Source: Allobosea sp. WAO (GTDB lineage Bacteria > Pseudomonadota > Alphaproteobacteria > Rhizobiales > Beijerinckiaceae). Taken from it: a stretch of DNA of 64,000 nucleotides. Location: positions 310,001-374,000 of the forward strand of contig NZ_JXTJ01000007.1 of NCBI RefSeq assembly GCF_001509835.1. Direction: 5' to 3'. Positions 32,108-37,759 of the stretch are shown piece after piece. Each line of letters begins with the position of its first letter. The first letter of the stretch is position 1. A program made the position numbers and the translations under genes. Below the pieces are notes generated by a model, which was not told where the DNA came from, made no database searches, and saw nothing but the letters and a program-made list of their open reading frames with translations.

Positions 32108-33082
32108 TCAGCGCTCGTGCCGCCGGATGCGCCGGCCCATCTCATTCAGCGCCAGCAGCACCAGCGCCAGGATGAAGGGCAGGATGTAGTAGATGATCCG
32201 GAACAGCAGCAAAGCCCCGAGCACATGCTCGAAGGGCAGGCGGCTGAGGGCGATCAGCATCGTCGCCTCGAAGACGCCGAGCCCGCCCGGCGCGTGGCTG
32301 GCGATGCCGATCAGGCAGGCGAAGATATATGCGGCGAGGAAGCTCTCATAGGGCAGGTTGTGCCCGCCCGGCAGCAGGACGAAGAGCACGGCCGCGGCGG
32401 CCGAGACCTCGCAGGCACCGAGCAGCATCTGGCCCAGCGTCACGCCGAGGCCGGGCAGAGGCAGGTTCCAGCCGCGCACCCGCAAGGTGCGCTCGCCGGT
32501 CGCGACCCAGAAGAGATAGCCGACGATGACGACGCCAGTGACGGCACCGATCGCCTGGATCACCAAAGGCGAGGTGCGCGCCAGCTGCGCGACCGAATCC
32601 GTCGCGTAGAACAGGCTGAGGCAGAAGATCATGCCGAGCCCGAGCCAGAAGGTCAGGCCGGCGATCACGGTCAGGCTCGCGACCTCGGAGGCGCGCACAC
32701 CCTTGGCGGCATAGACCCAGTAGCGCACCGTACCGCCGGTGACGATCGGGAAGCCGAGCGTGAAGGAGACCGAGTAACTGGTGAAGGAGCCGAGCGCGGT
32801 GGTGCGGTACGGGATCGACAGGCCGAGTCGGCGCAAGGCGAGCGCGTCATAGCCGGTGAGCAGGAGATAGCTCAGCGCGGTGAAGGCCAGCGCCAGCGAA
32901 AGCTGCCGGAGGCTGGCATTGGCGAAGGCCTTGGCGAGCTCGCCGGGCTCGATCTCGCGGACGATGAAGTAGAGCACGACCAGCGAGGCCAGGAAGATGA
33001 TAGCGCTGGCGAGCGGGCCGAGCCACCACCAGCGGCTGCGCTTGCGCAGCGGCATTCCTGGCTCGTGCGGGCCGAAAGACAT
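32108..33082 (-). CDS. YbhN/UPF0104 family membrane protein (lysylphosphatidylglycerol synthase-type transmembrane domain)
   Basis: 324 residues with about eight membrane helices, matching the flippase half of MprF-like proteins without the synthase half. Typical blocks are LTGYDALALRRLGLSIPYRT, LGFPIVTGGTVRYWVYAAKG and GIASHAPGGLGVFEATMLIA. ATG 33082 (MSFGPHEPGMP) has AAGAG six bases upstream; the in-frame extension to 33220 is Arg/Pro-rich. Related proteins move lipids or isoprenoid carriers, but the substrate here cannot be told. It lies 94 bp upstream of phoR on the same strand. Confidence 0.85.
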   Translation of the reverse strand: MSFGPHEPGMPLRKRSRWWWLGPLASAIIFLASLVVLYFIVREIEPGELAKAFANASLRQLSLALAFTALSYLLLTGYDALALRRLGLSIPYRTTALGSFTSYSVSFTLGFPIVTGGTVRYWVYAAKGVRASEVASLTVIAGLTFWLGLGMIFCLSLFYATDSVAQLARTSPLVIQAIGAVTGVVIVGYLFWVATGERTLRVRGWNLPLPGLGVTLGQMLLGACEVSAAAAVLFVLLPGGHNLPYESFLAAYIFACLIGIASHAPGGLGVFEATMLIALSRLPFEHVLGALLLFRIIYYILPFILALVLLALNEMGRRIRRHER

Positions 33083-33326
33083 GCGGGCTCTTGTCGTGTT
33101 GCTGCCCGGGTCTCGGCGGGCAAGGCGGATTGCAGGCGGGAGGGCGGGACCGCCCGGACCCGAGAGATAGCGCCTCGGCGGCGAACCACAAGCGCGAGCC
33201 GCGCGGCGAATGCGCGCCATGAGGCCCGCGCAGGGCTACCGGACCGCCCTTTGCGACGGTCCGGTGACAGCCCGGAACGGACCCGCGGCACCCAGCCGGG
33301 CTCTCTACCAATATGCCGGAACGCTC

Positions 33327-33428
33327 GTCATCCTGGACAAGCGGCGCAGCCGCGCAGCTCCGGGATCCATCGTCGGGCGCTGCGCTCTACGATGGATCCC
33401 GGGCTGCGCTTCGCTCGCCCAGGATGAC
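33327..33428. repeat. Palindromic intergenic element between the ABC-F and YbhN-type genes
   Basis: Outer arms GTCATCCTGG (33327-33336) and CCAGGATGAC (33419-33428); inner arms CCGGGATCCATCGT (33360-33373) and ACGATGGATCCCGG (33389-33402), perfect over 14 bp. The remaining 33083-33326 sequence shows no gene. Confidence 0.85.
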
Positions 33429-33462
33429 GTCCGTTTCCGAACCAAGACAAGGAGCACCAAGA

Positions 33463-34983
33463 CTAACCCTGCCCGGCCGCCCGGGCGAAAAAGGCTTCCG
33501 GCCCCTCGACCTCGAGCAGGCGCCGGTTCTCGATCTGCCAGAAGCGGTTGCCGACCGCCCGGACGAAGCTGCGGTCATGCGAGACCAGGAGGCAGCAGGT
33601 TTCCTGCGCGGTGAGCTCGGCTTCGAGCGCCTCCTGGCCTTCGATGTCGAGATGGTTGGTCGGCTCGTCGAGCAGATAGAAGTTCGGCCGGGCGAGGCGC
33701 AGCGCCAGCATGGCGAGGCGCGCCTTCTGGCCACCCGACAGCACCCGGATCGGGCTCTCCTGCAGGTCGATCGCGATGCCGGCGCCGGCGAGCAGGCTGC
33801 GTGCCGGCTGGTCGCCGACATCGAAGCGGCGGCTGATCAGTCGATGCGGCGTCTCGCCATCGGGATACTCGCTCAGCTGCTGGCTGGCGAAGCCAGGGAC
33901 CAGCGAGGGCGTCGCCCTGACGCCAGTAATCTCCTGCCCGGCGATCGCCGCCTGGATCAGGTTGATCAGACACGACTTGCCGGCGCCGTTGGCGCCGAGC
34001 AGCACGATGCGGTCGCCGGGGCAGATCCAGCGCTTGCCCGTCCTGAACAGCAGGGTTCCGTCCGGCGTCGTGACGGGAAGGTCCTCGAGTGTCAGCAGGG
34101 CGCGCGCATGCGTGCCGGCATGGCTGAGCCTGATCGCGCCGGCCGAGCGCTCGCGATGCGCCGGCCGGGCCGCCTCCTCCAGCATCCCGGCCCGCTGCCT
34201 GAGCTGCTTGGTCTTGCCGAGCAGGAGGTCGCTGCCGGAATTGATGCCGATATTGTTGAGCTTGGCGGCCTGACGCCGCAATTGCTGGGCGGTCTTGATG
34301 TCGCGCTGATAGCGGCGCGCATCGGCGGCGTCGATCTCGTCGAGGGCGATGCGGGCCTGCGAATAGGGCAGCGGGAAGGATTGCGACCGCTCATGGCGCA
34401 GGAACAGCGTCCGGTTGCTGACGGCGTCGAGGAAGGCGCGGTCGTGGCTGGCGACGACCACGGCCATGTCGCGCGGCAAAGCGGCCAGCCAAGTCTCGAG
34501 CTCGCCGATCCTTTCAAGGTCGAGATGGTTGGTCGGCTCGTCGAGCAGCAGGAGATCCGGCTCTGCCACGCTGGCGCGGGCGAGCATGGCAAGCCGCTGC
34601 CAGCCTCCGCTCAATTCCCGAAGCCGGCGCTGGCGCAGCGCTTCGGGCACGCCGAGGGAATCGAGCGCGACCTCGACGCGCCAGTGCTCGCTCTGGGCCT
34701 GGTCCGCCGGCAGCGCGCCGAGCACCAGCTCCCGGAACGGCAATTCCGCAAGCCGTGGCGGGATATCCTGCTCGACATGGCCGATGCGCAGGCCGCGCGA
34801 GCGGGTGATCTCGCCACTGCCGGGTTCGGCCGTGCCGGCAAGGCAGCGCAGCAGGGTCGACTTGCCGCGGCCGTTGGCGGCGACGAGGCCGAGCCGGTCG
34901 CCCGGGCCGATCGCAAGGGAGAGGTCGGAGAACAGCGGCGCGCCCAGCGTGATGCCGAGCTTCCGCAGATTGATCATGGTCAT
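33463..34983 (-). CDS. ABC-F family ATP-binding protein
   Basis: 506 residues with two ABC domains and no membrane segments. First Walker A ANGRGKST (37-44) and signature LSGGWQRL, second Walker A GANGAGKSC and signature LSGGQKAR; both Walker B motifs read LLDEPTNHLD. The roughly 80-residue charged linker between domains (from about YSQARIALDEIDAADARRYQ) is the part that enters the ribosomal E/P site. ABC-F proteins rescue or protect ribosomes, and some give antibiotic resistance. A leader peptide 212 bp upstream suggests ribosome-dependent induction. Starts at 34983 (ATG) or 34977. Confidence 0.88.
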   Translation of the reverse strand: MTMINLRKLGITLGAPLFSDLSLAIGPGDRLGLVAANGRGKSTLLRCLAGTAEPGSGEITRSRGLRIGHVEQDIPPRLAELPFRELVLGALPADQAQSEHWRVEVALDSLGVPEALRQRRLRELSGGWQRLAMLARASVAEPDLLLLDEPTNHLDLERIGELETWLAALPRDMAVVVASHDRAFLDAVSNRTLFLRHERSQSFPLPYSQARIALDEIDAADARRYQRDIKTAQQLRRQAAKLNNIGINSGSDLLLGKTKQLRQRAGMLEEAARPAHRERSAGAIRLSHAGTHARALLTLEDLPVTTPDGTLLFRTGKRWICPGDRIVLLGANGAGKSCLINLIQAAIAGQEITGVRATPSLVPGFASQQLSEYPDGETPHRLISRRFDVGDQPARSLLAGAGIAIDLQESPIRVLSGGQKARLAMLALRLARPNFYLLDEPTNHLDIEGQEALEAELTAQETCCLLVSHDRSFVRAVGNRFWQIENRRLLEVEGPEAFFARAAGQG

Positions 34984-35194
34984 GGTTCAGGTCTCTGGAC
35001 TGCCCGAGCCGTCATCCGACGGGGCGCGCCCCGGCGCCCCATGCCTCGAATGCGAAACGCCGGAACGGCGTCGGCTCGATTGAGTGGAACAGGGCGCAGA
35101 TCATCCGAGCCATGAGGCCGGACGCATGCGCCACCACGAAGGGCAGACCGAAAAGAGAACCGAAAGGGATCGCCTCTGAGGTCAGCCCTGCAAG

Positions 35195-35254
35195 CTAGCC
35201 TTGCAGGGCCTGAACGGGGCCGCGCTGACGATGGTGACGAAAGAACGTGATCAC
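35195..35254 (-). CDS. Leader peptide upstream of the ABC-F gene (19 residues)
   Basis: GTG at 35254 preceded by AAAGGAGG (minus strand, 35260-35267) at five bases opens MITFFRHHRQRGPVQALQG and stops at TAG (35195-35197). The stop lies in the loop of a perfect 10-bp hairpin, GCCCTGCAAG/CTTGCAGGGC (35185-35209), so a ribosome finishing or stalling on the peptide would open the stem. Such leaders control several resistance genes, including ABC-F genes, by attenuation. The peptide itself probably has no function beyond its translation. I see no homolog by eye. Confidence 0.6.
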   Translation of the reverse strand: MITFFRHHRQRGPVQALQG

Positions 35255-35289
35255 GCAGCCCTCCTTTCTCGTGTGGGTCGACGCAAGGG

Positions 35290-35317
35290 AATTAGCGCCG
35301 TTCGACGAAAGCGACAA
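35290..35317 (-). promoter_or_regulatory. Candidate promoter for the leader peptide/ABC-F transcript
   Basis: On the minus strand TTGTCG (35312-35317) and CTAATT (35290-35295) are separated by 16 bp, a plausible sigma-70 -35/-10 pair. Transcription would begin near 35283, about 16 bases before the leader's Shine-Dalgarno. The -35 overlaps the last codons region of the upstream gene, which ends at 35321. Confidence 0.4.
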
Positions 35318-35320
35318 GCC

Positions 35321-35887
35321 TCACGCGGTCTTGCGGAAGATCCGGAGCGTCTTGAACTCACCGATTTCCTCGACGGGACGCGACTTCGCCCATTCCTCGA
35401 TTATCGGCTTGGCCGTCTCATAGGCGAAGGAGCCGGTGTAGAACAGGATATGGCCGCCGGCATCGGTCTGGTCGGTGAAGAGCTGCATGACCTCGAGATC
35501 GGTCAACGCACCATAGGCGTCGTTCTTCTCGCTGCGGAACTCGCAGGAATGGAACAGGGTGACGATGTCGAAGCGCGGCAGCAGCTTGGCATTGCTGGTG
35601 TAGATGTCGCCGAAATAGGCACTGTAGCTCTTGGTGATCGTCGGGTTGTCGATCGCCAGCTTGACGAAGGCGTCATATTCCTTCGGCGAGGCGGTGATCC
35701 CGAGCACGGTGCAATCCAGTTCCGGCTCGGCGCAGCGGATGCCGATGTAATGATGGCCGCCGGTGCCGAAATGATAGATCCGCTTGCCGGTGATGCCCTC
35801 TTCCTCGAGCCATTCGACGAAGTGCACGTCGCAGGGGCACTGCTCGACCCGCAGGCCCCAATAGACGTCCCAGATGTGCATCTGCAT
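35321..35887 (-). CDS. Protein of unknown function, possibly Rossmann/methyltransferase-like
   Basis: 188 residues, soluble, with no signal peptide or membrane segment. RIYHFGTGGHHYIGIRCAEP looks like a Gly-rich loop after a beta strand, and RFDIVTLFHSCEFRSEKND could be a motif-III-like strand of a class I methyltransferase, but the canonical Asp/Glu pattern is not convincing. There are several Tyr, His and Cys residues (EQCPCDVHFVEWLEEEG). ATG 35887 has CGGAG seven bases upstream, so translation is credible. It precedes the ABC-F leader on the same strand. Function not recognised. Confidence 0.75.
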   Translation of the reverse strand: MQMHIWDVYWGLRVEQCPCDVHFVEWLEEEGITGKRIYHFGTGGHHYIGIRCAEPELDCTVLGITASPKEYDAFVKLAIDNPTITKSYSAYFGDIYTSNAKLLPRFDIVTLFHSCEFRSEKNDAYGALTDLEVMQLFTDQTDAGGHILFYTGSFAYETAKPIIEEWAKSRPVEEIGEFKTLRIFRKTA

Positions 35888-35968
35888 GGCAAAACTCCGT
35901 GAAGGCTGGGGGAAAGAAGCGCCGGGCGAGGCTGAACGCCGGCTGAATGCAAGGTTGGTTGGAGATCG

Positions 35969-37759
35969 TCAGCCGCCGCCGGCCTCGGCCAGGACGACTG
36001 GACGCGCCGGCTCGGCGACGATGCGGGCGACGCCGCCGGCACGGCGCATGGTGAGATGGCGGCAGGAGACCTCGGCGAAGCCCGGGCTCTGGCCGATCAG
36101 CAGCATGATCGCCTGCGGGCGCGTCGCCCTGATATGCGCCAGCAGTTCCAGCGCCGCCTCGGTCTCCAGCCCGCTGGTCGCCTCGTCGAGCACGAGGATG
36201 TCGGGATTGGCGAGTTCGGCCCGCGCCAAGGCCAGGCGCTGCCGATCGCCGGTGGTCAGCGCCTTGTCCCAGTCGCGCGGCTGGTCGATCTGCGGCACGA
36301 GGCCGGAAAGCCCGTAGCTGCGCAGCGCTTCCTTGGCCGCCTCGACACTATGGTCGCCGGCAGGATCGAGCGCGGCGCGCAGGCTGCCTTCCGAGAGATG
36401 CAGTTTCTGCGGCAGCACCGCGAGCCGCGCCTCGGCCGGCAGCGCGACGCTGCCCCTGCCCCAGGGCCAGAGCCCGGCGACCGCCTGGATCAGCGCCGCC
36501 TTGCCATGGCCGAGCTCGCCCGCGACATGCAGCGTCGCGCCCGGCGGCAGTTCGACCGCGAAATCGGCCAGAAGGGTCCGCCCATCGCGGTCGGTGAGAG
36601 TGAGATCACCCAGCCGCAGGCAACCATCGGCGCTGGTCTCGACCGCGATCTCGCCGCCGGAATGGCCATGATCGAGTGCGCCGAGCGCGACCGCGAGCTC
36701 GTTGACCCGCCGCGCCGAGGCGAGCCATTCGGCGATGCGCATGAAATTGTCGAGCACCCAGTTGAAAGCATTTTGGACGGCGACAAAGGCGGCGGCGACC
36801 TGGACGACATCGCCGAGCGACATCTCGCCGGAGAGATATTTTGGGGCGGCTAGCAGGAGCGGCACCACCGGGACCAGCGCGCCGCTGCCATTGGTGATCC
36901 AGGTCAAGCGGCCGCGCTGGCGGATCATGGCGAGCCAGCGCCCGACGAGATTGTCATAGGTCGCGGCGACGGCGCGGCGCTCCCCGGTCTCGGAGCGCGA
37001 CAACGCGATGGTTTCGCCATGGTCGCGGATGCGCATCAGCGAGAAGCGCAGGCGCGCCTCGCCCTCGTTGCGGGCGGCGATCAGGCGCGGCAGCGGCCGG
37101 CCGACCCAGGTGATCAGGCTGGAGACCAGCACGGCATAGACGATCGCCGCCAGCACCATATAGGCGGGAATCTCGAAGGTCGTGCCCCCGGCCGAGACGG
37201 TCAGCGAGCCGCCGATGCTCCAGAGGATGCCGATGAAGGTGATCGCGGTGATCACCGCCGAGAGCAGGCCGATGGCGAAGTCGACCACCGGCTCGGTCGC
37301 CCAGCGGACATCGTCGGCGATGCGGTATTCGGGATTGGCCGGCTCGTAGCCGGAGAGGCCGAGCCGGTAGAAACGGCGCTCGCCGATCCAGCCATCGGCG
37401 AGCCTTGCCGTGACCCAGGCGCGCCAATGGACCTGGAATGTTTCCCGTGAAACCAGGATGACGACGCCGAGGCCGGCAGCGATCAGCACCAGCACGGGGA
37501 AGACCGCCATGGCGATCAGCGCGCTTTCGCCGTCTTTTTTCTCGAGCGCGTCGAAGAACCAGCCATTCCAGCGGTTGACGGTGACATTGGCGAAGACGGC
37601 GAGGATGATCGCGCTCGCCAGCGAGATCGACCAGAACCAGGCCTTGCCGGCGTTGGCGCCACCCCAGAAGCCGCCGGTCAGCCGGGCAAAGCTCTTCGCG
37701 ACCTGCCAGTCCGATGGCAGGCCGGCGTCCCTGGCATGCTGGTCGAGCGCCTTCAGCAC
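35969..37759 (-). CDS. ABC transporter with fused permease and ATPase, BacA/SbmA-YddA group, degenerate ATPase motifs
   Basis: 596 residues. The N-terminal membrane domain (about 1-360, six helices) is of the SbmA/BacA type: NVTVNRWNGWFFDALEKKDG, WRAWVTARLADGWIGERRFY, NPEYRIADDVRWATEPVVDF. The C-terminal ABC domain has the Walker lysine but Ala instead of Ser/Thr after it (GELGHGKAAL), a signature LTTGDRQRLALARAE, an intact Walker B NPDILVLDEATSGLE, and Gln in the switch-His position (LLIGQSPG). BacA relatives import peptides or alter very-long-chain lipid handling. ATP turnover may be weak or lost in this copy. Confidence 0.82.
   Translation of the reverse strand: MLKALDQHARDAGLPSDWQVAKSFARLTGGFWGGANAGKAWFWSISLASAIILAVFANVTVNRWNGWFFDALEKKDGESALIAMAVFPVLVLIAAGLGVVILVSRETFQVHWRAWVTARLADGWIGERRFYRLGLSGYEPANPEYRIADDVRWATEPVVDFAIGLLSAVITAITFIGILWSIGGSLTVSAGGTTFEIPAYMVLAAIVYAVLVSSLITWVGRPLPRLIAARNEGEARLRFSLMRIRDHGETIALSRSETGERRAVAATYDNLVGRWLAMIRQRGRLTWITNGSGALVPVVPLLLAAPKYLSGEMSLGDVVQVAAAFVAVQNAFNWVLDNFMRIAEWLASARRVNELAVALGALDHGHSGGEIAVETSADGCLRLGDLTLTDRDGRTLLADFAVELPPGATLHVAGELGHGKAALIQAVAGLWPWGRGSVALPAEARLAVLPQKLHLSEGSLRAALDPAGDHSVEAAKEALRSYGLSGLVPQIDQPRDWDKALTTGDRQRLALARAELANPDILVLDEATSGLETEAALELLAHIRATRPQAIMLLIGQSPGFAEVSCRHLTMRRAGGVARIVAEPARPVVLAEAGGG

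Follow-up and report, generated by a model that had tools for sequence, protein, structure and literature searches.

Does the 19-codon reading frame ahead of an ABC-F ATPase gene of Allobosea sp. WAO control that gene, and by what means? The locus was analyzed within a window of 64,000 nucleotides (nt), positions 310,001 to 374,000 of contig NZ_JXTJ01000007.1 (assembly GCF_001509835.1), and all coordinates are positions in this window. An earlier note, made from the sequence of the window, had proposed that the frame and a hairpin form a proteobacterial ABC-F attenuator. Comparison with relatives indicates that the leader and four pairing segments probably constitute a translational attenuator of the ABC-F gene, and the leader most likely turns the gene on when a ribosome sticks on it. 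The minus-strand frame, its Shine-Dalgarno sequence, and the perfect 10-bp stem described in the note were all found at the positions it gave.

35264..35259, minus strand: leader Shine-Dalgarno sequence GGAGGG, 56 nt past the end (35321) of the upstream open reading frame (ORF)
35254..35195, minus strand: leader ORF MITFFRHHRQRGPVQALQG, 19 codons, GTG start at 35254, TAG stop at 35197..35195
35216..35221, minus strand: Gly-Pro codons (residues 12-13), the proposed stall site, two codons 5′ of hairpin arm A
33463..34983, minus strand: ABC-F ATPase, 506 amino acids, the putatively regulated gene; NF000355 is its best NCBIfam model

The GTG start is five bases 3′ of GGAGG, and the ABC-F start at 34983 is 211 nt past the leader stop. 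The stem is formed by arm A (35209..35200) and arm B (35194..35185), and the 5-nt loop between them (35199..35195) contains the leader stop codon.

The leader is conserved together with one ABC-F gene

The window by itself does not decide between a leader and chance. The combination of Shine-Dalgarno sequence, short ORF, GPxxA motif, and stem occurs once, and 30 shuffles contain it 0.57 times on average. There is likewise one perfect 10-bp stem whose loop is 5 nt long, compared to 0 or 1 in 10 shuffles, and perfect 10-bp stems with loops of 3 to 8 nt number 11, compared to 0 to 4 in five shuffles. A functionless chance ORF with a hairpin would fit a pattern that is not rare enough in the window alone, but the conservation, the ABC-F link, the selection on the peptide, the covariation of the hairpin arms, and the swap tests described below make this explanation hardly credible. 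The window statistics are insufficient alone, and we consider the leader peptide element real because it is conserved in relatives.

A DNA search with 35330..34950 gave matches in 13 of 61 genomes, 12 of them from the genus. The main match in four more distant genus genomes extends from 35271 to about 35128, which covers the leader and the stretch that follows it. A covariance model of the leader element was built from 30 leaders. Of 397 genomes of the order, 57 scored 39.8 bits or higher, and the next best genome scored 26.6 bits; at E values up to 0.01 the model matched 77 genomes, and those beyond the 57 are weak. An ABC-F gene lies downstream of the leader in all 57 strong-match genomes, which bears out the tie that the earlier note had drawn between the two. 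The gene is about 1.5 kb beyond the leader in G190, unlike the other strong-match genomes. At L136 and L149 (G190), leader and gene are separated by a stretch that includes a 401-codon ORF on the other strand and may be an insertion element.

A protein search identified an ABC-F orthologue at an E value of 1e-110 or better in 61 of the 397 genomes, and all 61 possess the leader, 55 by the model and six diverged ones by eye and script. Conservation of the leader in relatives that keep the ABC-F gene, by which the earlier note proposed to judge its reading, is complete in this set. Across the class, 11 of 385 genomes match the model at 1e-4, one being the window's own. The nine others that score at least 36 bits adjoin an ABC-F gene, and a tenth, at 30.5 bits, is without one. 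The model search places the element beyond the family and order of the window. Within the genus, the ABC-F gene is found in 36 of 61 genomes, and the leader was present in all 31 of those checked. The gene is also found on 12 plasmid records, six of them typed as conjugative, and the leader accompanies it in the three examined (two Sinorhizobium meliloti and one Ketogulonicigenium vulgare). These comparisons establish the link between the leader and the ABC-F gene. The only strong match to the leader model in the window's genome is the window locus.

Weak model matches of 30.5 bits or less (L112, L140, L141, and L142) lack an ABC-F match and were discarded as false positives. The alignment of 99 loci was reduced to 94 by removing L112, L140, and L141 (no ABC-F), L136 (insertion), and L109, where the hairpin pattern failed although the motif is visible by eye. 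The 94 loci represent 92 distinct regions (L022/L099 and L024/L082 are repeats), and the genomes of L073 and L077 are represented by L001 and L007.

Three side observations concern the same loci. ABC-F copies at L095 (G172), L128 (G341), L132 (G261), and L109 (G593) match piecewise, with an internal deletion or frame break, and their leaders keep the Gly-Pro motif and the hairpin; this pattern suggests gene decay in some species. At least two of the 57 strong-match genomes (G172 and G341) are thus affected. The distance from the hairpin to the ABC-F gene is 288 and 287 nt in L025 and L028, compared to about 144 nt in near relatives. The extra sequence of about 140 nt begins approximately 10 to 15 nt past the hairpin and may be a short repeat element that lies between segments B and C (defined below). 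A second leader subtype with arms GCCCCGCG/CGCGGGGC is found at L143 to L147, L150 to L167, and L169, with one G-U variant in L144. It accompanies ABC-F orthologues that are approximately 55 to 60% identical, and both subtypes are present in the window's genus, in different genomes.

The leader is selected as a peptide

An SD-like run stands 5 to 8 nt ahead of a start codon in 89 of the 94 loci, and the script assigned none in five. Single-base codon differences were counted in the seven codons ahead of the hairpin (-7 to -1). The leader frame has 5027 synonymous and 1191 nonsynonymous differences, and the two alternative frames give 1183/4735 and 524/4545. These counts come from 94 loci with 71 distinct strings, one of which (L096) was misplaced by the script, and they are pairwise rather than independent events. 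They indicate that the leader is under selection as a peptide in its ORF frame. Conservation at the amino acid level is a property of erm-type attenuators, and it is found here.

Gly-Pro is present in all 76 distinct 12-residue stretches obtained from 121 loci, and all four Gly and four Pro codons are used. Twenty-seven of the 121 loci were chosen by ABC-F protein or plasmid match and their leaders placed by the Gly-Pro codons and stem, so leaders that lack Gly-Pro would have escaped there; all 27 loci yielded one with it. The distance between Gly-Pro and the hairpin is fixed among the compared loci. Conservation extends to R-[QT]-x-Gly-Pro-[VI], with Arg at -7 in 62, Gln or Thr at -6 in 70, and Val or Ile at -2 in 63 of the 76 peptides. 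The 9 to 15 residues ahead of Gly-Pro are variable in sequence (89 loci with an assigned start). Arg/Lys-x-Arg/Lys, the charge pattern of macrolide arrest, is found in 49 of the 76.

The earlier note had singled out the His-His-Arg-Gln-Arg stretch as a possible stalling or codon-sensing part, and HHRQR in the window peptide is what would recommend an amino acid attenuator that senses His or Arg codons. A conserved run of control codons, which such an attenuator should have, was not found: His-His is present in 30 of the 76 peptides. The codons vary synonymously while Gly-Pro is fixed, and the ABC-F gene is not biosynthetic. Sensing of His codons is therefore unlikely, and an amino acid attenuator of either kind is very improbable. 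The invariance of Gly-Pro, with His-His in a minority of peptides, suggests that the peptide end near the catalytic center matters rather than the His pair.

Four segments with predicted, mutually exclusive pairings

Four segments from the end of the leader ORF to the ABC-F start were defined by comparison and folding.

35200..35209, minus strand: segment A, the left hairpin arm; compensatory pairs, formed in the minimum-energy fold
35180..35194, minus strand: segment B, the right hairpin arm plus TGACC (GGGCTGACC); predicted to pair with A or C
35141..35159, minus strand: segment C, TTCTCTTTTCGGTCTGCCC; predicted to pair with B or D
34991..35005, minus strand: segment D, GGGCAGTCCAGAGAC, just 5′ of the ABC-F start; predicted to pair with C

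The A:B hairpin is maintained by compensatory changes. There are 23 distinct arm pairs in the 121 loci (the misplaced L096 among them), including GCCCTGCA/TGCAGGGC, GCCCCGCG/CGCGGGGC, and GCCCCACG/CGTGGGGC. Pairs 1 to 3 are invariant, the eighth fails in 2 of the 23, and the ninth is often nonstandard, as in 20 loci with GCCCCGCGC/TCGCGGGGC. The covariance model was built from hairpin-bearing leaders, a choice that partly builds in the A:B pairing as such but not its compensatory changes. The stop codon in the hairpin loop, which the earlier note described, is correct for the window and is not a general trait. Only 18 of 94 loci have it there, and in 71 it stands immediately 3′ of arm B.

The core of segment C is GGTCTGCCC, preceded by a pyrimidine run. 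The pairing energies in the window are -25.0 kcal/mol for C:D and -19.6 kcal/mol for B:C. The two pairings were compared with pairings of swapped segments in 52 representatives; L025, L028, and L108 were left out, where segment C was not placeable. C:D has an energy of -17.95 kcal/mol with the locus's own segments compared to -15.35 kcal/mol with swapped ones, and none of 20000 permutations was as good. The corresponding values for B:C are -19.32 and -18.19 kcal/mol, with 19 of 20000 permutations as good. The controls, which paired C with neighboring windows (43 and 52 representatives), B with D, and the leader start with C, gave no gain. Individual loci illustrate the pattern: B, C, and D are changed together in L104 and L129 (GATCG/CGATC), and C and D pair over 11 of 12 bases in L132. 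These comparisons establish co-variation of A:B, B:C, and C:D at the level of sequence.

The unconstrained minimum-energy fold of the window locus (-143.7 kcal/mol, z -3.6 compared to shuffles) contains A:B and C:D together. Most of 34984..35005 is paired in this fold, and the ABC-F ATG is open. Comparison and folding thus point to mutually exclusive pairings, one of which masks the ABC-F start region, and this is the second property expected of an erm-type attenuator. The predicted unpaired fraction of the ABC-F start region was calculated for 92 loci, the 94 without the two longest (L025 and L028). It rises from 0.391 when A is free to 0.449 when A is covered, and it is 0.377 when A and B are absent; the window values are 0.314, 0.491, and 0.317, respectively. 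The folding agrees weakly with the direction of the proposed switch. The anatomy fits control by a stalled ribosome, as the earlier note had proposed; the hairpin on which that note relied is not the switch by itself, and segments C and D have to be added.

Control of transcription was considered at this point. Leader translation could govern intrinsic or Rho-dependent termination rather than access to the ABC-F start, and a Sinorhizobium upstream ORF with premature termination for a DUF1127 gene provides a precedent (PMC12218461). A consensus scan of the coding strand between leader and ABC-F gene gave no terminator-like site, and segment D beside the start codon co-varies with C. Transcription attenuation is improbable on these grounds, with a Rho-dependent form being conceivable, and the absence of a terminator-like site in the consensus scan leads us to prefer translational control.

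Proposed mechanism and inducer

The translational attenuator would work as follows. If the leader is not translated, A:B and C:D would form and the region ahead of the ABC-F start would be masked. Full translation would give the same result: a ribosome at the leader stop would cover A and, in most relatives, B, and C:D would form. A ribosome stalled at Gly-Pro would have its front edge over arm A. With Pro in the P site, it would cover about 7 nt of A, an estimate that rests on the ribosome footprint. B would then be free to pair with C, D would be released, and the ABC-F protein would be translated. We infer leader translation, the stall and its exact site, and this ON/OFF behavior from the anatomy of the locus. 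A ribosome-targeting antibiotic that acts at the peptidyl transferase center or the tunnel entrance is the most likely inducer, and the ABC-F protein may confer resistance.

The same attenuator could have a different inducer. If Gly-Pro stalled ribosomes in the absence of a drug, the switch would be ON by default, and the ABC-F protein would free the ribosome and shut the switch, which would keep the protein in balance with its own substrate. The R-G-P sequence, found in 55 of the 76 peptides, resembles the RAPP, RGPP, and RAGP arrest motifs (PMC12992588, PMC10987492), and MsrD represses its own leader-controlled expression (PMC10314930). In RAPP-like arrest, the third residue occupies the P site of the stopped ribosome (PMC10987492), and RGPP is the strongest of these motifs (PMC12992588). 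However, the 9 to 15 variable residues that precede Gly-Pro suit drug-assisted arrest, the fourth residue is Pro or Gly in 1 of 76 peptides, and 21 of 76 have a residue other than Arg ahead of Gly. We regard intrinsic arrest with feedback as unlikely, although it deserves consideration. It is likewise doubtful, but conceivable, that the leader is a new short Gly-Pro arrest peptide acting without a drug and that the ABC-F protein is an alphaproteobacterial stall-rescue factor that titrates itself through the four-segment switch.

Known resistance ABC-Fs tend to vary within genera (PMC6723617). The patchy presence of the ABC-F gene, in part of the genus and on plasmids, resembles that of resistance ABC-Fs. 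Linker residues 241-257 are invariant at 12 of 17 positions in 31 aligned orthologues, and the protein is 91% identical to that of a named Bosea metagenome-assembled genome. The structure model has a mean predicted local distance difference test (pLDDT) score of 88.8. The best Foldseek match is VmlR2 on the ribosome, with EttA and PoxtA about equal. The protein scores 206 bits with PRK10636, 199 with Uup, 198 with PRK15064, and 178 with EttA. The window's genome encodes separate EttA-like (942 bits) and PRK10636-like (550 bits; also named YheS) ABC-Fs. A second ABC-F of the same genome, at L064 (G000:C34:665131-666645; 537 amino acids) scores 338 bits with the ribosomal-protection-like model, which is higher than the window's gene.

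Several results weigh against an antibiotic-induced switch of this design. Pairing within the locus is stronger than the median swap in 67% of the 52 representatives for C:D and in 69% for B:C, so the co-variation signal comes from part of the set. The swap permutations handle ancestry by thinning only and are not tree-aware. C:D is weak in some loci, with -5.4 kcal/mol in L110, -5.9 in L111, and -7.6 in L105. The shift in accessibility is small: covering A raises it in 47 of the 92 loci, lowers it in 17, and changes it little in 28, and in the nearest relative, L002, it falls from 0.366 to 0.320. With respect to the gene product, the score with NF000355 (ribosomal-protection-like ABC-F) is 281.7 bits, under the cut-off of 380, and the fold search fails to distinguish ABC-Fs that confer resistance from housekeeping ones.

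Neighboring features

35289..35317, minus strand: possible promoter TTGTCG-17-TAATTC, a short distance 5′ of the leader, on weak evidence

A consensus scan of 33000..36200 returned no promoter. In a set of 73 relatives that are less than 70% identical, TTG occurs most often at -52..-50 from the element start (9, 10, and 11 of 73) and TA at -29..-27 (14, 9, and 17 of 73). The mean best promoter hexamer score in 73 relatives is 7.4 compared to 6.8 when shuffled. In an Rfam search of the window, a single tRNA reached its gathering score, and a search of 34950..35330 gave three matches with E values of 2.9 to 3.9, all far under their gathering scores. Downstream of the ABC-F gene, 32108-33220 on the minus strand encodes a 370-amino acid protein like the flippase half of MprF (220.8 bits, cut-off 600).

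Significance

The locus represents a conserved family of leader peptides that goes with one ABC-F clade and combines a fixed candidate stall site with a base-pairing switch. The clade belongs to the Hyphomicrobiales and also to other orders, among them the Rhodobacterales, for which sampling is thinner, and the leader-ABC-F pair occurs in soil and plant bacteria. Stalling on a leader is a form of control documented chiefly for antibiotic-resistance genes in other bacteria, and the literature examined describes leader control of ABC-F genes for Gram-positive bacteria. Identification of the inducer would reveal what the uncharacterized ABC-F acts on. The pair is located on pSymA of two S. meliloti strains (M162 and M270 are carriers of the ABC-F gene), which makes the mechanism testable in a model species that is not a pathogen.

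Comparison with known systems

Searches of open-licence PubMed Central, which leave subscription papers outside, returned no earlier description of this leader, and a Sinorhizobium ribosome-profiling paper (PMC10117765) does not use the term ABC-F in its main text. Arg, Gln, or His precedes Gly-Pro in 60 of the 76 peptides, which is similar to the RQH/RAPP peptides, including ApdP of Alphaproteobacteria (PMC10987492). The RQH motif (R/Q/H)-(A/G/D)-(P/G/S)-(P/G) as a whole does not fit, with P or G in the fourth place in 1 of 76, and every strong leader match examined precedes an ABC-F gene, unlike the RQH/RAPP peptides with their sec or yidC genes. The misfit in the fourth residue and in gene context is the reason that the leader is not classed as a RAPP-like arrest peptide.

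Like the vmlR, msrD, vgaA, and ARE5 systems, the locus has a leader peptide ahead of an ABC-F gene. Those upstream ORFs are described as acting mainly through premature transcription terminators, with translation attenuation also reported for vmlR (PMC9226507). The consensus scan detected no intrinsic terminator between leader and gene here, unlike in those systems, and the region ahead of the ABC-F start is predicted to be paired.

ErmCL/ermC-type attenuators combine a short leader, an internal stall, and alternative hairpins hiding the start of a ribosome-protecting gene. The present locus appears analogous in all three respects, the internal stall being proposed, and it differs in its fixed Gly-Pro peptide, in having an ABC-F as the regulated gene, and in belonging to Alphaproteobacteria. 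In ErmCL-type systems the RNA switch frees translation (PMC11264731, PMC12121999). The E. coli toiL-topAI system is a Gram-negative counterpart in which a ribosome stalled on the upstream ORF unmasks a ribosome-binding site (PMC12121999). The toiL sequence itself pairs with the topAI site, unlike the arrangement proposed here, and topAI is a gene of a toxin-antitoxin pair.
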